DNA of 64,000 bases from a virus, in the IMG/VR virus record IMGVR_UViG_3300008448_000016, positions 43,237-107,236 of that record; one strand, given 5' to 3'. The first letter of the stretch is position 1. The number at the start of each line of letters is the position of its first letter. Both the position numbers and the translations under genes were made by a program. The notes under the pieces are model-generated. The model made no database searches and had not been told where the DNA came from. It worked only from the letters and a program-made list of their open reading frames with translations. Shown here in pieces: positions 2,761 through 56,433 of this stretch.

Positions 2761-4985
2761 TATTGGAATACATAATTTATATTATCCATAAATAAAAATT
2801 CAACATCATCTTGGAATATCTTTGTGTCTCCACCGCAGAATACACAAGAAATGTCATAATTAATTATTAAATTTATAACAACATTCGCATCATCAAGTTG
2901 GTTTATTGTTGTTGGTTGACAAGCTGTTCCTCCAGTTATACATCCACTTTTTATAATGATTTGATTTGTTTCAATATTTGCAACAACACTTGTTATACCA
3001 CTAAAAGAATAAAGTAGATCGGTTATCGCTGTTACCCACTCCTCATCGGTAGGATAATCATTCATTGTTGATGCGGTGTAGAAAATACTTTGTTGATTCA
3101 CACCATTAACCGTAACATCAGCAGTAAATGTGGCGGAATTTAATATACAACCCGTATCACCACTTGTTAGATCAAAATATCCTTCATTAAACATTTGTAA
3201 AACACCTCTTCTTCCCGATACCCCAGTATTTCTAAATTTATCCGCACAAACATTATAGATCTCGTATCCTGTAAATAATGTTGTTCCATTCAATGTAGTT
3301 GTTCTTGTAAATGAACATCCATTATTATCAATAACTTGTAATGAATATGTCCCTGCGGTTAATCCTGTTACCGTTGTTCCTGTTTGACCATTAACGTTCG
3401 GAGACCAATTAAGTGTAAATGGTGGAACCCCACTTGTTATTAAAGCTGAAAGTTCTCCGTCATTACCTACCAATGGTTGGACATTGAAAAAGTCAAAATA
3501 AACTCCGACTGACCCTGTAATATAAACGGTTTCAGTTTGACTACATCCTCCCGCATCTGTTACTATTATATTGTAAAATCCTTGTGATAAATTATTAAAC
3601 GACGATACCGGCCCTGAAGGAAATCCTGTTACTTCATATGTATATGGTAATGTACCCCCCGATGAAGCCAATATATGAATTGATCCATTATTAAGACCAC
3701 AAGTTGTTCCCGTTGTACTAGCAGTAATTGTAAAAAGATTTGTATTACTTACGGTTGTTGTTCCCGTATATATACAAGTACCATTACTAACTTCAACAGT
3801 ATAATTTCCTGAAGGTACTGAAGGGAATGTATTACTAACACCTGCAGTATTTATTGATACCGTGTTTCCTGAACTATCAATTAAAACATAAGTAAAAGTT
3901 CCTGATGGTGACCCAGCATTTATTAAAACGTCTATAGATCCATCATTATTATTACAGTTTGAGTTTGTGGTTGTTATTGAGACTACTGAAAACCCATTTG
4001 GCGTTATTAATTCAACACTATCAATATCTGTACAAAGTCCCGCATCGGTAACCATCACAGTTAATATTCCTGATGATAAACCTGTAAATGTAATCGTATT
4101 TGAAAAAGTTACTTCAACATATCCATTTGAACCTGAAAAATAATATGGTGGAGTACCTCCAACAACCAACACCTCAACCTCACCATCATTGGAAAAACAA
4201 GAAGGTGATGTGGTTGTAAATGAAACGATATTTGGTGCGGATGCGGTAGTTACAACCGCATTTTGACTTATTGAGCACCCATTGGAATCAGTAACAGTAA
4301 CAGTATAAACACCATTTGTTAAACCTGTAATAAATGAAGTTGTTTCTCCTCCAGGTAGCCAAGAATAGGTATATGGAGGATTTCCTGTTTGTCCGGTAAC
4401 ATATATTTTACCCGTACCTAATAACGATTCACAATTACTATCATTAATAACATAAGTACCATATGTAAATGTGGTAGATGATTTTACAATACAAGATTCA
4501 CTTTTACCTGTACATCCACCACCGTCATCACCAACAACATAGTAAGTTCCGGCAGATAAGAATGGGAATATGTGCGTTGCACCAACATTTGTTGCCGAAT
4601 CAATTAGATTATCATTTATATCATATAAATAAAAATCAGCACCTGATAGATAAACATTTTGTGTTATTGCGGTTATAGATCCATTAGAATCACCACAACT
4701 TGTATTTTCACTATCTATTGAAACACAAGTTCCTGAAGAAATATAAATAGGATACGTAACCGCACTAAATGAAGCGTCGGTAATTGTAATTGAGTATTCA
4801 CCAGCAGGAATACCTGTAACAGAATATAAAGTTGTTGTACCTGAAGTTGGGAAATACCCTGTAGTTGGTGCGGTTTCAAAGACCGAAAATGGTGATGATG
4901 TTCCTGTTATATCAAAATAAATTGCACCAACCCCAGAATTACTACAGTCTCCCGTTACAGAATAATTATATACTGATATACTCAT
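2760..4985 (-). CDS. Virion adhesin with SprB-like repeats
   Basis: 741 residues. After a short N-terminal beta-domain the protein is a series of about six or seven domains of 70-80 residues. Each contains a Cys followed by N-x-G-S-I or D-G-E (for example CGLNNGSIHIL), a G-x-P-P-Y-x-Y/F strand, an L-x-x-G-x-Y-x-V turn, and V-T-D-x-x-G-C near the end. This is the signature of SprB repeats, described from the gliding-motility adhesin SprB of Flavobacterium and from many Bacteroidota surface proteins. In this context it probably binds host surface polymers. The last about 170 residues are a separate domain with a GGDTKIFQDD stretch. It shares a translational junction with its neighbours on both sides (overlap at 2760 and 4985). 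Binding function is inferred from repeat type, not shown. Confidence 0.75.
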   Translation of the reverse strand: MSISVYNYSVTGDCSNSGVGAIYFDITGTSSPFSVFETAPTTGYFPTSGTTTLYSVTGIPAGEYSITITDASFSAVTYPIYISSGTCVSIDSENTSCGDSNGSITAITQNVYLSGADFYLYDINDNLIDSATNVGATHIFPFLSAGTYYVVGDDGGGCTGKSESCIVKSSTTFTYGTYVINDSNCESLLGTGKIYVTGQTGNPPYTYSWLPGGETTSFITGLTNGVYTVTVTDSNGCSISQNAVVTTASAPNIVSFTTTSPSCFSNDGEVEVLVVGGTPPYYFSGSNGYVEVTFSNTITFTGLSSGILTVMVTDAGLCTDIDSVELITPNGFSVVSITTTNSNCNNNDGSIDVLINAGSPSGTFTYVLIDSSGNTVSINTAGVSNTFPSVPSGNYTVEVSNGTCIYTGTTTVSNTNLFTITASTTGTTCGLNNGSIHILASSGGTLPYTYEVTGFPSGPVSSFNNLSQGFYNIIVTDAGGCSQTETVYITGSVGVYFDFFNVQPLVGNDGELSALITSGVPPFTLNWSPNVNGQTGTTVTGLTAGTYSLQVIDNNGCSFTRTTTLNGTTLFTGYEIYNVCADKFRNTGVSGRRGVLQMFNEGYFDLTSGDTGCILNSATFTADVTVNGVNQQSIFYTASTMNDYPTDEEWVTAITDLLYSFSGITSVVANIETNQIIIKSGCITGGTACQPTTINQLDDANVVINLIINYDISCVFCGGDTKIFQDDVEFLFMDNINYVFQ

Positions 4986-7984
4986 TAATTACATAAAAGA
5001 TTAAAGTTTATTCCCACATTTAATGTAAATGTTTGTGTTTCACTTAATGGAATACAATTATTATTATAAACCGTAAATGTATTATTACCTGTTATAACAT
5101 AACTCAAACCATAGTCTTGTAAAGTAACAAAACTCGTTTGTACCGCTCCAGTCCAAGCCGCCTCTGTTGGTACAGATAAAGGATTATTATATCCCAATCC
5201 ATTAAAGAATGGGTAATTTATAATGTCAGTACCATTAAAGTTAACGTTAACATACCATGTTGTTTGTAGTGTTGTTAAATCACAATCACCTAATGTTAAT
5301 CCATTTGATATTAAGAATGGTTTTAAAGTTGCACCTAGAATTCCACCAAAATTGGTTATTCTTGATCCTTCTTCCCAAGGATATAAAGGACAAGTTAATG
5401 CTTGTATAGGACAATCATATTGGAATATTTGTCCAACCAATAAACAAGGATTACAAGGTACAAGAACAATCTGACAACCCATTTGTCTTCTCCATACAAA
5501 TTTTTGTCTGTGGAATATTGAGTTCTCATACTTAACCCCTGTATTCCATATTGTTGTTGCCGGAACCATTTGTTCAATCAATCTGATCCAGTAATCACCC
5601 AATCCATTCACATAATCAATCATTGTTTGATATGTAAAATTATCGTTATCAACACCAGCTAAAGACATTGATTCAAGATATTTCCAATATATTGATTGTA
5701 ATGTTGGATATCCTCCTGTTTTACCATCAGTTATAAATTGTCTGTTTCTAACATTAATCGTATTATGCCAAAAACTTTGAGCAAACTCAAAAAATGTTTT
5801 TTGTTTTGGTTTTGGTACGATTTCAGTCCAATCAATACCCCCTCTTGATGGGTATGGTGTGTTTGGATTAGGATCACAATAGGTTGGTGGTACATATCTT
5901 AAACCTTGTTCTGGTATTGGGAAATTATATGTTCTTGACATATTCCATACATCATAAACTAAACCTTGTGATGGGTTCATAAATATATCAACGTTTTTAA
6001 CGTTCAATACCAATCTTTCATCACCAACAGGATAATAAGCGTTAAATCCTCCATCAGAACTTTTTCTTAATCTACTTTCATTAATGATCCAACTTTTCTT
6101 ATTATCTATTGTTTTTCTAATTTTATATCCAACTTCCATATAAGGGAATTGTCTATACCTTTGAAGATACTCATCACCATAATTAAATGGTAATAAAGTT
6201 GTTTGATAGTCAGGATTTTGACCTGTAAATGTTGATAAAGTAATATCAACTTGAGCTGGCATTCTATGTTGAGGTGTTGACTCTATCCAACCACCTCCTA
6301 TTTGGAAATAATAACTTTCGCTGTCTAACGGCATACTTGGATATCCAAAAGAATCCATTGGATAATCGGATCTTCTTACACTTATGTCTTGCGTTGTTAT
6401 ATTAGTGGTAAATCCTGTATATTGGACACCCATGATTGAGTAGATGTCCGTAGTGTCTAATGTTGGTGTGTATTGGACGTATGTTCCTCCTGTCAATTGT
6501 GCGTATTGCTCTCCAAATTGATTTAGATTTATTTTTTGATCGGCAACATATACATACTCATTAAATTCTGTGATTGCATCAGGAGCTCCAATTAATCTCA
6601 ATAAAATCTCAATTGATTTTCTTGTTCCCTTTGACTTGAATAGGTATGCGGAATTTAAAATTAAATTTCTATAATATTGATAATTTAATTCTTCAGGTGT
6701 TTGTCCCTTTGAGAGTCCTGTAAAAGTGTTCTCACCACTACTAAAGACAGAATTTAATAATTGTTCATTTGTGATTGGTGAGATGTTATCTTTCCATCCT
6801 AATGTCAATGCCAAATTTTTTAATAATTGTGATGGAATATCGTTCTTAACCGTATAGTTAACTGAATTCATAAATGCCAACGCACTTATAAATTGTTTGG
6901 TTTCATCAAAACTTCTACCATAGATCTGAAGCATTTTTTCAACTTTTTGATCTTGGGTATCAAACTCTTTTATTGCACCTGCCGTTAAAAATCTTGAAAC
7001 TAAATTTGTACGGTACTCATCCAAACTTTCTGCAATCTCATTAAGATTCAATAAATATTGATTAAAATCAGTACCAGATATTGATATATTCCAACTACCA
7101 TTAACAGGAAATCTTGCAACTTTTACCGTTAAAGTATATCCACCAGATTCATTTTCAACAGGGGTGTTAAAATATGCTGTATATTTTGGACTTACATCTC
7201 TATTCAATAAAAAATTCTCAACTTTATCAAAATCCTCATTGAAAACCTTATTAACATAAAAATCTGTTGGTCGTATTATGATAGTATCATATGATTGTTG
7301 TCCACTAAAAGGATTACCTTCAATATATAATTTTAATACTGTATCTGTTTCGGTTGTTGGTATTAATGAGTTAATAGTATAAACCTCATCATTTATAATG
7401 ACCCCATATTTAGGATATTCTAATGTTATATCTCTCAATGGTGATACAGAAAATTCTCTTAGTTGTAAATTTCTTGCAGCATCAATAGTATAATCAATAT
7501 CCAATGGATTTCTAATAGATTCCAATGGTATTTCAAAATATGTTTCATTTTCAACACTATCATATTGTATGTTAATTGCAGTTTTTGTAATATTATATTG
7601 TGTTGTTGCTGAATATATTTCTAATGCCGCAGGGTAAAAATTTATTATTTTTGTAACGGATACCGACATTCTTTTTGCTAGCGATCCATACAATGTAAAG
7701 TTTGTTATTTCACTTAAATCGTAATTAGGATATACTTGAAAATTTTTAGCAACAAGGAGTTTTGATTGTTCAATATCTGAGATATTTAACGTACTCAAGG
7801 ATATTGGATCAGAAAATGTTCCAATAGTAAAAGTTCTGTTAACCTTTTCAGTAACGTTTGTTGTAAACTCAAAATTCGCTTGCGTAAGTCCTCCACCGGC
7901 AACTAATTGTACCCCAACCAAATTGTCAGAAAAACTACCTTCACCGCTTGCTTGTGGTGGGCAAGTATATTTTGTAACCGCCAT
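4985..7984 (-). CDS. Large baseplate/tail protein with tail protein I-like segment
   Basis: 999 residues. Around residues 430-480 it contains LFKSKGTRKSIEILLRLIGAP, followed by a conserved-looking acidic/aromatic region. An S-K-G-T-(R/K)-x-(A/S)-(I/V)-E motif of this sort is typical of P2 gpI-like tail proteins that link baseplate to fibres. N-terminal residues 1-330 are beta-rich. Residues 600-850 contain Trp/Tyr-rich sequence, and the C-terminal part has a Cys cluster (QMGCQIVLVPCNPCLLVGQ). It overlaps both neighbours by one base, as in a tightly coupled structural operon. I infer a fibre-to-baseplate adaptor. The remaining length has no family I recognise. Confidence 0.6.
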   Translation of the reverse strand: MAVTKYTCPPQASGEGSFSDNLVGVQLVAGGGLTQANFEFTTNVTEKVNRTFTIGTFSDPISLSTLNISDIEQSKLLVAKNFQVYPNYDLSEITNFTLYGSLAKRMSVSVTKIINFYPAALEIYSATTQYNITKTAINIQYDSVENETYFEIPLESIRNPLDIDYTIDAARNLQLREFSVSPLRDITLEYPKYGVIINDEVYTINSLIPTTETDTVLKLYIEGNPFSGQQSYDTIIIRPTDFYVNKVFNEDFDKVENFLLNRDVSPKYTAYFNTPVENESGGYTLTVKVARFPVNGSWNISISGTDFNQYLLNLNEIAESLDEYRTNLVSRFLTAGAIKEFDTQDQKVEKMLQIYGRSFDETKQFISALAFMNSVNYTVKNDIPSQLLKNLALTLGWKDNISPITNEQLLNSVFSSGENTFTGLSKGQTPEELNYQYYRNLILNSAYLFKSKGTRKSIEILLRLIGAPDAITEFNEYVYVADQKINLNQFGEQYAQLTGGTYVQYTPTLDTTDIYSIMGVQYTGFTTNITTQDISVRRSDYPMDSFGYPSMPLDSESYYFQIGGGWIESTPQHRMPAQVDITLSTFTGQNPDYQTTLLPFNYGDEYLQRYRQFPYMEVGYKIRKTIDNKKSWIINESRLRKSSDGGFNAYYPVGDERLVLNVKNVDIFMNPSQGLVYDVWNMSRTYNFPIPEQGLRYVPPTYCDPNPNTPYPSRGGIDWTEIVPKPKQKTFFEFAQSFWHNTINVRNRQFITDGKTGGYPTLQSIYWKYLESMSLAGVDNDNFTYQTMIDYVNGLGDYWIRLIEQMVPATTIWNTGVKYENSIFHRQKFVWRRQMGCQIVLVPCNPCLLVGQIFQYDCPIQALTCPLYPWEEGSRITNFGGILGATLKPFLISNGLTLGDCDLTTLQTTWYVNVNFNGTDIINYPFFNGLGYNNPLSVPTEAAWTGAVQTSFVTLQDYGLSYVITGNNTFTVYNNNCIPLSETQTFTLNVGINFNLLCN

Positions 7985-43033: not shown

Positions 43034-44629
43034 TTAATTTGTTTTTTTATCAATACTTAATTCCCATCTCGTATTACCACAATCGTATATTCTATATATT
43101 TTACGTTCAAACATAATTTCTTTTTCAGTTTTATTAGAATCAAATCCTTCTTTTATTAAAGATGATTTTTTAAAATTAAACCTATAATGTCTTTTATTTC
43201 CAATAACATACCAATAGTTTGGTTTTGATTGAGATATAAATTTGAAATTTAACTTTTCATATAAATCGCCCTTAAATAACCTAATATCAGAATATGAAAT
43301 TATTTTTTTAGGGTTATTTATTTTTATAAAATTTTTTAATAGTTTTGATGCCGACCCAATAACATTAGTATTTAATTTATTACAAAATCTATTTAATTCC
43401 CATTCATCTGTTTTACCTCCCATTATAATTCTCCCTTTTGAGAATGTCATAATAGAAACCATTTCGTCTTTAAAAAATAAACCTAATCTAACTCTTGAGT
43501 TAACGGATCCTTGAATATGGTTTTTCTCCAAAAAATCCTTACACTCTTTAAAACCAACTTCTCTTATTTCACATTTTCTAGCAAAAATTTTATTTTCAGA
43601 TATTTTAATTTTATTTTTTATTATTGATTTTATAATTTCTTGATTGTATATCCATTCATCTTCAAAAATATGAATTAATTCAATATTCTCACCCTCACAT
43701 TTTATTGTTTTTTCTAAATGATAAAATGGTGTTTTAAATAACTCATTATGCCAATATAAACCATTAAATTCTATACCTAAATTATAATCCGGAATAAAAA
43801 CATCAACTTCAGTTTTTTTATTTTTTAATTTAAAATTTGTTAGATATTTAACACCTATAACATCTAAAAAATCACAAATCTCATTCTCATATCCACTCCT
43901 TTGTTTAAACCCTAAAGGATTACAATTTAAACAAACATCATAGTTTCTCTTATATCTTTCATATAATAATTGTTTTGTTAATTCAGACTTATTACCACAT
44001 TTAGGACAATCAATTATAACAGATCCTTTTTTCACCTCATTAAAATATATTTCGGAATATAAATTCTTATATTCTTGAGTGATTCTATTGTGATAATTAT
44101 TTGATTTAGAATAATTATCTACACCATATTTTAATTCGCAAGTTTTTTTATATTTTTCAATATTATTGTAATTTTCATTACCATAATTAATTAACTTTGT
44201 GTATTTACTTTTCTCAATGTTATTATAATTTTCATCACCATAATTAATTAACTTTGTGTTTTTTTGTTTTTTAACAAATTCTTTGTGTTCTGGATAAAAG
44301 TCCACACCATATTTATCATTAAATGTCTTTTTTTGTCTTTTGATTAATTCTTCTTTTGAAGAATTGGCACAAGATAAAGAACAAAAATCACCATATGGTT
44401 TGTCAAATCTGTTTCTAAATTTAACTTCATTACCACACTTAAAGCATTTTGGTCTTTCTTTTAACTTATGAAAATAAAAATAAAGTTTCTCCTTGAAAGT
44501 TAGATCTTGATTTAAAGTTTTTGAGTATTCAATTATACTATTATATAATTCTAACTCATTTTTCATTAACCATTTTTCGTTGGTCTTATATCCTGATTTA
44601 TTATTGATTGTGAAAAATGAAAAATCCAT
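43034..44629 (-). CDS. VSR-like homing endonuclease with zinc-finger N terminus
   Basis: 531 residues. Residues about 55-85 hold a Cys4-type finger (CFKCGNEVKF ... CSLSC). Residues 130-185 contain repeated K-Y-G-x-(D/E)-N-Y-x-(N/K)-(I/S) modules typical of DNA-binding regions of free-standing phage endonucleases. A second zinc ribbon (CPKCGNKSEL ... CLNC) follows. Residues about 245-335 hold the EDxHD/PD-(D/E)XK-like core: YENEICDFL, TEVDVFIPDYNLGIEFNGLYWHNE and ELIHIFEDEW, as in the VSR-related homing nuclease family represented by Hef. The gene sits between the tube and hub genes with its own TATTTATT box, and neither neighbour is interrupted, so it is an intergenic mobile gene. Two 57-bp direct repeats (about 44171-44284) encode the tandem K-L-I-N-Y-G-(D/N)-E-N-Y-N-N-I-E-K modules. 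Confidence 0.82.
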   Translation of the reverse strand: MDFSFFTINNKSGYKTNEKWLMKNELELYNSIIEYSKTLNQDLTFKEKLYFYFHKLKERPKCFKCGNEVKFRNRFDKPYGDFCSLSCANSSKEELIKRQKKTFNDKYGVDFYPEHKEFVKKQKNTKLINYGDENYNNIEKSKYTKLINYGNENYNNIEKYKKTCELKYGVDNYSKSNNYHNRITQEYKNLYSEIYFNEVKKGSVIIDCPKCGNKSELTKQLLYERYKRNYDVCLNCNPLGFKQRSGYENEICDFLDVIGVKYLTNFKLKNKKTEVDVFIPDYNLGIEFNGLYWHNELFKTPFYHLEKTIKCEGENIELIHIFEDEWIYNQEIIKSIIKNKIKISENKIFARKCEIREVGFKECKDFLEKNHIQGSVNSRVRLGLFFKDEMVSIMTFSKGRIIMGGKTDEWELNRFCNKLNTNVIGSASKLLKNFIKINNPKKIISYSDIRLFKGDLYEKLNFKFISQSKPNYWYVIGNKRHYRFNFKKSSLIKEGFDSNKTEKEIMFERKIYRIYDCGNTRWELSIDKKTN

Positions 44630-53683: not shown

Positions 53684-55084
53684 ATGAAAGTATCTATTAA
53701 ACATATCAAATGCCCTATGACAAAGGAAAGTAGGGATCTTGCAAAAGTTTTTATTGAATTCTTACAAAAGAGATTTCCTCTTAATCACGATATTACAGTT
53801 TTATTTTTAGGCGAAAGAACTGGTACTATGACAACAGGTAGTAGAAATAATGATCACGTTTTAAAAGTATTAACAAAAAAAAGATTAAATAGAGATATTT
53901 TAAAAACATTATCTCACGAGTGGGTTCACGAATACCAACATTCAATTTTAGGTAGAGAAAGAGGCCCAGATATTGGTGGTCAAAATGAAGATGAAGCTAA
54001 CTCATATGCGGGAAGATTAATGAAGATTTTTGAGAAAGAACACCCTGAATTTACTGAATTAGTTTACGAAGGTTTTAAAAATACATTAAAAAGAATTGAT
54101 TTAATCTCTGAACAATTTGTTAAAAAAGATAAAGAATTAATACAAGAACAATTCCTATTAGAAATGAAAAAAATAGGAATAGATAAATTACCCTATTCTT
54201 ATTCGGCATTAAAACAATTTGTGGATCCCGAAACAATGGATATTCACTATAACAAACATTACAAAGGATATGTAAAAAAACTTAACGATGCCTTGTCAAA
54301 TAAGAAAGGTGAAATGGAACTTGAGGATATAATTAAAACCATAAGTAAGTTTGATACTAAAGTTAGAAATAATGCTGGTGGAGCATTTAATCATGCATTA
54401 TTTTGGAAAATGTTATCACCAAAAAAACAAACACCAAAGGGAGATATCTTGGAAAGAATATTAAAACAATTTGGTTCTTTTAAGAAATTCAAAGAAGAAT
54501 TTAACAAAGTCTCAATGGATAATTTTGGATCGGGTTGGTGTTGGTTAGTTCTAACGAAAACAAATAGATTAAAAATAATGTCAACACCAAATCAAGACAA
54601 TCCTTTAATGAATATCATTGATGGTGGTGGATATCCATTATTAGGTCTTGATTTGTGGGAACACGCATATTATTTGAAATATAGAAATAAAAGAGATCAA
54701 TATATTAAAAATTTTTGGGATTGCGTGAATTGGGAATTCGTTAATAGTCTTTATGACTTGAAAACAAACAAAAAAGAAACAATTAATGAATCGGTTGATC
54801 GTAGAGAAAAATCGGCATTAAAATGGTTAAACAAGAAATTTGGTGATCTTACACCGGTGGTTGTTGACAATAGAACATATTATATTGATGAGGACAGAAA
54901 ACCATTATTTTACTATTCCCAGGATTCAAAATATAAGGATATTTATATAAATTACGAAAGAATTTGGTCGTTTTTTAATTCTATTTTTGGTCTGAATACC
55001 TTGCAAACACAGGAGATTCTGAAGGTATGGTTGGAAGAGACCTATAATTTAAAGGGGGTCACACCACCTTTTTGGAAATTATGA
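53684..55084 (+). CDS. Metallopeptidase-superoxide dismutase fusion protein
   Basis: 466 residues in three parts. Residues 1-160 contain TLSHEWVHEYQHS, a zincin H-E-x-x-H at 78-82 with Glu residues at 102 and 104 (NEDEA) as candidate third ligand. Residues about 163-355 are a complete Fe/Mn superoxide dismutase: IDKLPYSYSALKQFVDPETM; metal ligands His188 (DIHYNKHYKGYV), His237 (AFNHALFW), Asp323 and His327 (DLWEHAYYLKY); Tyr196; and GSGWCWLV with NQDNPL (Gln304 at the Mn-type position). Residues about 370-466 are a small domain (INESVDRREKSALKWLNKKF, DEDRKPLFYY) ending WLEETYNLKGVTPPFWKL. SOD converts superoxide to peroxide and oxygen. The 3' end is the first unit of the repeat array at 55030. 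The combination is unusual and its purpose is unknown. Confidence 0.85.
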   Translation: MKVSIKHIKCPMTKESRDLAKVFIEFLQKRFPLNHDITVLFLGERTGTMTTGSRNNDHVLKVLTKKRLNRDILKTLSHEWVHEYQHSILGRERGPDIGGQNEDEANSYAGRLMKIFEKEHPEFTELVYEGFKNTLKRIDLISEQFVKKDKELIQEQFLLEMKKIGIDKLPYSYSALKQFVDPETMDIHYNKHYKGYVKKLNDALSNKKGEMELEDIIKTISKFDTKVRNNAGGAFNHALFWKMLSPKKQTPKGDILERILKQFGSFKKFKEEFNKVSMDNFGSGWCWLVLTKTNRLKIMSTPNQDNPLMNIIDGGGYPLLGLDLWEHAYYLKYRNKRDQYIKNFWDCVNWEFVNSLYDLKTNKKETINESVDRREKSALKWLNKKFGDLTPVVVDNRTYYIDEDRKPLFYYSQDSKYKDIYINYERIWSFFNSIFGLNTLQTQEILKVWLEETYNLKGVTPPFWKL

Positions 55085-55255
55085 AGATCAGATCTTGTTG
55101 GAAGAGACCTATAATTTAAAGGGGGTCACACCTCCTAAAATTGTGTACCGCGGCTTTAAAATGGTTGGAAGAGACCTATAATTTAAAGGGGGGGGCACGC
55201 CAGTTGTGTCTCGTATGTTATAAAAATAACAGTCGGAGGAAACCTTATAATTTAA
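55030..55255. CRISPR. CRISPR-like mini-array, three 36-bp repeats plus degenerate terminal repeat
   Basis: Repeat 1 at 55030-55065 and repeat 2 at 55097-55132 are identical over 36 bp, from 5' GTTGGAAGAGACC to 3' GGGGGTCACACC. Repeat 3 at 55164-55201 matches except for a longer G run (8 instead of 5) and CACGCC at its end. Repeat 4, about 55232-55255, is degenerate and truncated (GTCGGAGGAAACC, then TTATAATTTAA). The period is exactly 67 bp for the first two intervals. Spacers are 31, 31 and about 30 bp with no similarity to one another. The RNA could fold a GACCU/GGGGUC hairpin. Repeat length, spacing and a decayed last repeat all fit CRISPR, and the 5' GTTGGAA and 3' GGG..TCACA.C remind me of type VI-B (Cas13b) repeats of Bacteroidota. 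No cas gene is in the window, and repeat 1 is also the coding end of the preceding gene. Transcription sense is unknown. A coding-derived tandem duplication is the main alternative. Confidence 0.55.
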
Positions 55256-55308: not shown

Positions 55309-56433
55309 ATGTCTATAATACCAGAACCAGAAAGATCTGACTTATATAAAAAAATCAGACATTTATTAGGAGCACCATTGAGGGGTGTAGAATTGGAGGA
55401 TGAACAAATGGATACATTATTGGAGTTTTCAATTGATCAGTATTCTCAATATGTTCACGATTGGTTGATTGAATCTCAATGGACAAGTTTATATAACTTA
55501 AACGTTGACACGCAATCTGTTGCAAGAGCGTTCGTATCTAAAAGCTTGGATTATGAAACAAGATACACATATGCGTATTCCAAAATTGTTGGTTTACAGG
55601 CAGGTGGAGAATGGGAATTAAAGAAAGACTATATTCAGTTGGTTCCAAATCAACAAATATATGAGATACCCGCAAACAGAGAAATTAATGAATTATTATG
55701 GTTTACACCGGCAGAGTTAAATAATATGTTATTTGATCCTTGGACATTTGGTGGTATTGCTGGAGGTGGTATTTCAGGCCCTGCGGGATACGCTCAACTT
55801 GGTAATATGTCAGGATCATATTTTATGATGCCAGCATTTGATATGTTATTAAGAATGCAAGAAATTAATATTCAAAGAAGAATTATTGCGGGAGATTTAA
55901 CATATAGAATCACTGCATTACCGGGAGGGAAGAAAGCAATACATTTAATGAACACACCGGGAGGTAAATTTGATTTTGGTAATTCAACTTTAGCAAAGGG
56001 TAAAGTTTGGTATTGGTATTATGACACAACTGAAGGAGGAAGAGATCAATGTTTAAAGGATAACCCTGATATTATCAAATTACCTTCCGATGTTCCAATT
56101 GATAAATTAAGTTGGGTTGATCTTAATCACCCTGCGCAGATATGGGTAAGAAACTGGTTTATTGCAAGTTGTAAAGAAACACTATCAAAAGTTAGAGGTA
56201 AATATAGTGGTAATCTTAAAACACCCGATAGTGAATTAACAATGGATTACCAATCATTAGCAACTGAAGGTAAAGATGAAAAAACCAAATTAATTGAGGA
56301 ATTAATTGGTGCTGAAGGTAAATTAACAAGATTAAGACCTGATAAGGTATTAGAGCGTGAGGCGTTAATTGCAGAAAATTTAAATAAGCAATTAAAGTTC
56401 AGAGCCATGCCAAGACAAATTTATGTAATATGA
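55309..56433 (+). CDS. 13: Neck protein gp13-like
   Basis: 374 residues from the ATG at 55309; the frame extends upstream to a TTG at 55282 but that runs through the TATTTATA box. The N-terminal helical region IRHLLGAPLRGVELEDEQMDTLLEFSIDQYSQYVHDWLIESQW and later VPNQQIYEIPANREINELLWF, plus the C-terminal RNWFIASCKETLSKVRGKYSGNL, match the T4 gp13-like neck family (T4 gp13 is 309 residues). gp13 closes the portal vertex for tail joining. A Gly/Met-rich loop (GGIAGGGISGPAGYA, near 155) is an insertion. The next gene overlaps by 4 nt (ATGA). Confidence 0.75.
   Translation: MSIIPEPERSDLYKKIRHLLGAPLRGVELEDEQMDTLLEFSIDQYSQYVHDWLIESQWTSLYNLNVDTQSVARAFVSKSLDYETRYTYAYSKIVGLQAGGEWELKKDYIQLVPNQQIYEIPANREINELLWFTPAELNNMLFDPWTFGGIAGGGISGPAGYAQLGNMSGSYFMMPAFDMLLRMQEINIQRRIIAGDLTYRITALPGGKKAIHLMNTPGGKFDFGNSTLAKGKVWYWYYDTTEGGRDQCLKDNPDIIKLPSDVPIDKLSWVDLNHPAQIWVRNWFIASCKETLSKVRGKYSGNLKTPDSELTMDYQSLATEGKDEKTKLIEELIGAEGKLTRLRPDKVLEREALIAENLNKQLKFRAMPRQIYVI

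Follow-up and report, generated by a model that had tools for sequence, protein, structure and literature searches.

CRISPR-like repeat-spacer arrays that begin within the last codons of a small multi-copy phage gene

We describe a CRISPR-like repeat-spacer array that extends from the 3′ end of cdom, as we call a small phage gene occurring in multiple copies. The newest insert would serve as the C-terminal tail of the encoded protein and the inserts as guides, an interpretation that we advance tentatively. The array lies in a 64 000-nt stretch of DNA (the window) from a 107-kb IMG/VR virus record, and it is one member of a family of 54 distinct arrays in IMG/VR phage contigs that follow a single shared plan. 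Near-identical direct repeats, unrelated spacers of uniform length and a truncated distal repeat are all present, which are the structural features by which CRISPR arrays are recognized. The element is CRISPR-like in geometry and turnover and is not to be filed as CRISPR-Cas, since cas genes and protospacers were sought and not found in records that may be incomplete. As a whole, we propose at slightly less than an even chance that these phages possess an undescribed system of CRISPR-like memory attached to a small protein gene: its final codons would double as the repeat, fragments of foreign coding DNA of ~30 bp would be captured beside it, and these would be used as guides or tails against hosts or rival phages, either by the protein or by a host factor recognising the repeat. 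If units are indeed captured, we would be dealing with a capture device resembling CRISPR, made from the end of a protein-coding gene without known Cas genes. It would have a bearing on the origins of repeat-spacer arrays, and it could offer either a programmable guide system of a new kind or a novel way of diversifying protein tails.

Repeats and inserts in the window

Three 36-bp repeats on the plus strand start at positions 55030, 55097 and 55164, with a step of exactly 67 bp in both cases. The first two (R1, 55030–55065; R2, 55097–55132) are identical over all 36 bp, and the third (R3, 55164–55199) matches them for its first 27 nt and then enters a run of G. They are followed by inserts of 31 bp (55066–55096), 31 bp (55133–55163) and about 30 bp (~55200–55231, PVVSRML), all on the plus strand, and by a truncated terminal repeat, T (GTCGGAGGAAACCTTATAATTTAA), at 55232–55255 (plus strand). 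The initial annotation, made from the letters alone, had described two identical repeats and a near-identical third with a 67-bp period, unrelated spacers of 31, 31 and about 30 bp, and a fourth, truncated copy, and all of these were confirmed at these positions. Written as a pattern, the repeat is GTTGGANNNNNYCTNNNNTTKRAGGGNNNTCACAMC over its 36 positions. A search of the 30-nt core at up to three mismatches returned three matches compared with 0.00 expected from shuffles, which rules out a chance repeat. The rest of the 107-kb record contains no further copy at three or fewer mismatches, and the same record holds, 97 kb away, another, diverged array built to the same plan. Two other tandem repeats, with periods of 45 and 57 bp, occur in the window at 933–1039 and 44111–44263. 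The G-run of R3 (55190 region; also in L006 and L007) is 8, 9 or 10 long among near-identical phages, so that the virtual reading frame shifts.

The first repeat does not lie between genes as the term ‘orphan’ in the initial annotation would imply. With its sequence WLEETYNLKGVTP, R1 forms the coding 3′ end of a gene that terminates in cdom, and its DNA, GTTGGAAGAGACCTATAATTTAAAGGGGGTCACACC, provides the codons for LEETYNLKGVTP of that domain. The gene (53684–55084, plus strand) encodes an N-terminal part with an HExxH motif, Fe/Mn superoxide dismutase domains (Pfam Sod_Fe_N and Sod_Fe_C) and the C-terminal cdom. Its protein ends in ...WLEETYNLKGVTPPFWKL (ORF terminus ...KVWLEETYNLKGVTPPFWKL), with the stop inside unit 1, where insert 1 now encodes the C-terminal tail FWKL*. 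Automated annotation would be likely to overlook such an element, since it overlaps an ORF.

A family of arrays behind cdom genes

The family was collected by iterated searching from cdom through IMG/VR. Each array consists of a cdom gene, one to seven units of a 36-nt repeat plus a 29–33-nt insert, and a terminal repeat cut after ~22 nt. At least two full units are present in 23 of the 54 arrays, with up to seven inserts per array and ~94 inserts overall, and the repeat-to-repeat period across arrays is 65–68. Identity of the terminal repeat drops abruptly after ~22 nt in 53 arrays, where only this first part is kept. Every array found stands directly behind an in-frame cdom gene whose coding end is the first repeat, and multi-repeat arrays as well as solitary repeats all follow a cdom ORF in the 40 stretches inspected (the window plus L136–L174). 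The CRISPR-like geometry proposed for the window recurs in 54 arrays, with repeat identity inside each array as a rule, fixed-length unrelated spacers, fast turnover and a truncated terminal repeat.

Repeats are far more alike within arrays than between them, with 57 of 88 pairs identical within arrays versus 3 of 253 between arrays. The pool comprises 60 variants, and long arrays can be uniform (7/7 identical repeats in L097 and 5/5 in L159). In L100, L130 and L158 the variation gathers distally, and the trailer-end repeats of several arrays (L100, L101 and L130) are mosaic, so recombination clearly also shapes the arrays. The inserts have an identity at chance level (8.2 versus 8.3 of 28), and neighbouring inserts are no closer in sequence than distant ones. 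This anatomy is firmly established.

The cdom domain and its genomic context

All array-bearing genes share cdom, a domain of ~82 residues located in the window at 54818–55066 (plus strand; HMM match 5e-36). It has no confident Pfam or PHROG family. Its AlphaFold model is good (pLDDT 84.7; alpha, four strands, two helices) and has no fold match in the PDB. Relatives in BFVD come only from uncultured Caudovirales, and none was found in cultured phages with tblastn or in GTDB genomes (A1 scan). The domain is found C-terminally in longer proteins, by itself in a gene whose product starts MKIIITES, and in tandem copies. Some cdom genes (in L012, L013, L131, L133 and L134) have no array, showing that the array is not essential to the cdom protein.

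The remainder of the host gene in the window (53684–54748) carries its HExxH motif as HEWVHEYQH, fused to the superoxide dismutase domains, and adjoins a neck gene; relatives of this HExxH and superoxide dismutase protein occur in at least 153 IMG/VR stretches. Beyond the array, the next gene (55309–56433, plus strand) encodes an Ad2-like head-tail adaptor (PHROG 211), which together with a tail sheath and a DNA polymerase in the same phage indicates a contractile-tailed phage. The window also encodes a homing endonuclease at 43037–44629 (PHROG 3339, E 7e-115). A GIY-YIG-like ORF, recognized by eye only, is located at G000:C1:2352-2996 (L090), close to the second array of that same phage.

Insert turnover and proposed growth of the array

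The flanking DNA changes more slowly than the inserts. L111 and L115 have flanks that are 94–98% identical with wholly different inserts, and L113 and L115 share no insert between flanks of ~95% identity. Among phages nearly identical to that of the window, the window, L006 and L007 have three repeats while L008 and L003 have two. L008, with flanks 99.6–99.96% identical, lacks exactly the gene-proximal unit, including insert 1, and R1 equals R2 in the window, L006 and L007. As a result, the L008 protein ends in TPPKIVYRGFKMVGRDL instead of TPPFWKL, and the second insert of the window serves there as the active C-terminal tail PKIVYRGFKMVGRDL*. Only the gene-proximal unit differs between the window, L006 and L007 on one side and L008 and L003 on the other, a pattern that would look alike if a unit had been lost. 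The direction of growth would be read from one set of strain differences that are also explicable by unit loss.

We regard growth by repeat copying and insertion of ~30 bp beside the gene as the best reading of these arrays, and as a fairly probable one. In the proposed mechanism, the array would grow gene-proximally through copying of the repeat and insertion of a single ~30-bp segment of foreign DNA, mostly coding, which is the step in which we have the most confidence. Next in confidence, the newest insert would be read as the C-terminal tail of cdom and older inserts would be pushed downstream, and being read as a tail would select against in-frame stops. Loss of a unit via recombination between repeats would re-expose an older tail, as in L008. 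In a third step, the least certain one, the cdom mRNA would putatively carry the array at its 3′ end, and the cdom protein, the invariable neighbour of the array, may bind the repeat such that the inserts act as sequence-specific guides. This guide step, comprising the array in the cdom mRNA, binding of the repeat by cdom and guidance by the inserts, is a tentative proposal that falls a little below even likelihood, and a function of the inserts as guides or memory is suggested with the same reserve.

Inserts as possible protein tails

The inserts look like pieces of coding DNA. Inner inserts have a mean maximum log-odds for coding of 1.90, compared with 0.41 ± 0.26 for shuffled sequences and 2.59 for true coding 30-mers, and the excess is present also outside the tail frame (p = 0.002, codon-shuffle control). 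In the frame of their own repeat, 37 of 44 inner inserts are free of stops versus 23.7 ± 3.3 after dinucleotide shuffling (z = 4), and openness in the other forward frames is near chance. When only inner inserts that are not translated today are counted, 30 of 37 are open versus 20.0 ± 2.7 shuffled. A stop-free frame in downstream inserts that are mostly untranslated suggests that they are probably former C-terminal tails and that each unit probably once formed the end of the gene. This fits gene-proximal addition, and also the re-exposure of units by loss as in L008.

The same data bear on an alternative that we consider rather unlikely, namely that the inserts matter as peptides. The cdom protein would have a variable tail of ~10 residues, and the downstream units would be displaced tails swapped by recombination between repeats. 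In keeping with this, the frame of their own repeat is open and codon-like in inner inserts, although most are not translated now, and L008, with one unit fewer, has a different tail. Trp is found 24 times in the tail frame versus 8.6 expected, the terminal repeat provides a stop in two of three frames, and the orthologous tails of L016 and L017 (YANSTEVIGKIE versus YANGEQVVGKIE) differ by amino-acid changes. However, the coding signal extends to other frames, and the excess of Trp and Phe is partly present in other forward frames as well. Unit lengths are spread over all three classes modulo 3 rather than held to multiples of three, no sequence is shared among the tails, and the fixed insert length of 29–33 nt is left unexplained.

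Codon usage argues further for a role of the repeat beyond the protein. In array-bearing genes, the Arg codon in the repeat is AGG in 33 of 33 cases (genome use 11%) and the Thr codon is ACC in 37 of 44 (genome use 12%), whereas the rest of cdom and the array-less cdom genes have mostly AGA and ACA or ACT; these counts are not phylogenetically independent, yet the contrast inside the same genes is clear. The prevalence of rare AGG and ACC codons in the repeat indicates that it is constrained as a nucleic acid, a role that tail switching would not supply. On account of this constraint, and of coding signal outside the tail frame, we do not take the open frames to prove displaced tails, and both readings are kept. 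In Rhs or polymorphic toxin genes and tail-fibre genes, displaced tips accumulate and a conserved segment is repeated before each C-terminal end. Tips of the Rhs type are long protein domains, in contrast to the cdom inserts of ~30 nt and fixed length between identical repeats.

Cas genes, targets and resemblance to known arrays

Cas1 was absent from 20 phage records, which may be incomplete, and so was reverse transcriptase (0/20), by which a diversity-generating retroelement (DGR) was rejected. None of the PADLOC Cas models matched among 20 large ORFs of two phages, and the Cas12k family gave no match; the cas13b- or cas12-like genes that the initial annotation suggested looking for were not encountered in these sets. 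With no Cas1, reverse transcriptase or Cas effector found, nothing known would insert or read the units.

Among viral records, neither a source nor a target of the inserts was found in 45 related records, in the phage collection INPHARED (50,697 records) or in three degenerate back-translated scans over a minor part of IMG/VR. In the phages themselves and their relatives, the best protospacer matches were no better than shuffled controls, and those in INPHARED and the three IMG/VR scans were the arrays themselves or chance matches only. The spacer comparison with phage genomes that had been recommended thus gave no match. Plasmids, queried by the repeat only, returned nothing.

The initial annotation also pointed to type VI-B (Cas13b) arrays, and proposed a phage-borne guide cassette for a host effector or a decoy. 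According to this explanation, which we judge improbable, the repeat would mimic a host Cas13b repeat, and host Cas proteins would add spacers and use the RNAs or be titrated by them. Part of the likeness stands: the repeat is 36 nt long and begins GTTG, spacers are ~30 nt, the period is 65–68, and there is some resemblance in sequence, with 23 of 36 positions of the consensus (25 of 36 in the best variant) identical to one such repeat, that of Bergeyella Cas13b. The hairpin does not stand. Type VI-B repeats fold at about −7 to −11 kcal/mol, whereas no conserved RNA hairpin exists among the phage repeats, which fold no better than shuffles (mean z +0.2 over 60 variants). The short G-rich hairpin ascribed to the unit was therefore not recovered and, as Rfam has no family for the element either, we rejected a hairpin element. 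Furthermore, the repeat is a conserved protein-coding segment that is found in array-less relatives too, and neither Cas13b nor a spacer target appeared in the phage records and collections searched, all of which speaks against both a type VI-B cassette and a decoy. In Flavobacterium, VI-B arrays can be served in trans by acquisition proteins of the host (PMC8092290), and a survey of RNA anti-CRISPRs reported solitary phage repeat units from every CRISPR type but type VI (PMC10651486). In view of this gap and of acquisition in trans, the host-dependent reading was kept.

RNA anti-CRISPRs (PMC10651486) resemble the cdom arrays as phage-borne CRISPR-like repeats without cas genes; however, they are solitary non-coding mimics of host repeats, while cdom arrays have multiple units with inserts and are located in a gene end. 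Closer in form are the virus-borne mini-CRISPR arrays (Medvedeva et al. 2019, PMC6858448), which are likewise short, viral and without cas genes, and whose spacers vary between close relatives at the same site. They have host-like repeats, promoter-bearing intergenic leaders and spacers matching related viruses, in contrast to the protein-coding repeat, the single upstream gene family and the lack of spacer matches in our searches of cdom arrays. TIGR-Tas systems (PMC12045711) are similar in placing phage-borne arrays beside one protein gene, yet each TIGR unit has a pair of ~9-nt spacers, and the associated protein contains a Nop domain. With a single ~30-nt insert, and with cdom lacking a Pfam family and a PDB fold match, identity with TIGR-Tas was rejected.

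Recombination and duplication

Another possibility, which we hold to be slightly less probable still than mimicry of a host repeat, is that the arrays are by-products: tandem cdom cassettes would recombine at the repeats, lose their bodies and leave functionless remnants of repeat plus tail. Tandem cassettes do exist (L010, L014 and L016), and whole copies are gained or lost precisely at the terminal repeat, as seen for one cassette gained between L010 and L011. Insert 3 of the window recurs in L010, L011, L100 and L105, where it follows a complete cdom cassette, and the cassette body that belonged to it is gone from the window. The mosaic repeats at distal ends agree with such a process. On the other hand, donors drawn at random would mix the 60-variant pool, which is not observed in the long arrays with identical repeats (L097 and L159), and debris is not expected to show the rare-codon constraint or a uniform insert length. 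Even if recombination accounts for the arrays, they would represent an element that is widespread, evolves quickly and includes an uncharacterised protein fold.

If the gene end had simply been duplicated in tandem and the copies had then diverged in the ordinary way, the exact period and the repeats identical to the 3′ end of the gene would be explained. This reading is strongly disfavoured and was rejected, as the units are not alike along their full length, adjacent inserts are at chance identity beside identical repeats, and phages that are 95% identical share no insert. The initial annotation had named tandem copies of a gene 3′ end with related spacers as part of what would speak against a CRISPR-like array; the units do copy a gene 3′ end, whereas their spacers are mutually unrelated. 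Its interpretation overall is partly supported.

A nuclease-like protein with a DVIIDGTSYFVQVK motif is fused behind a cdom domain between cassettes (L010 ~4150–5181 and L011 6400–7460). A large ORF at L136:17674-19830 has a weak match to LmuB (PADLOC E 4e-9) and probably encodes an SbcC-type recombination protein.
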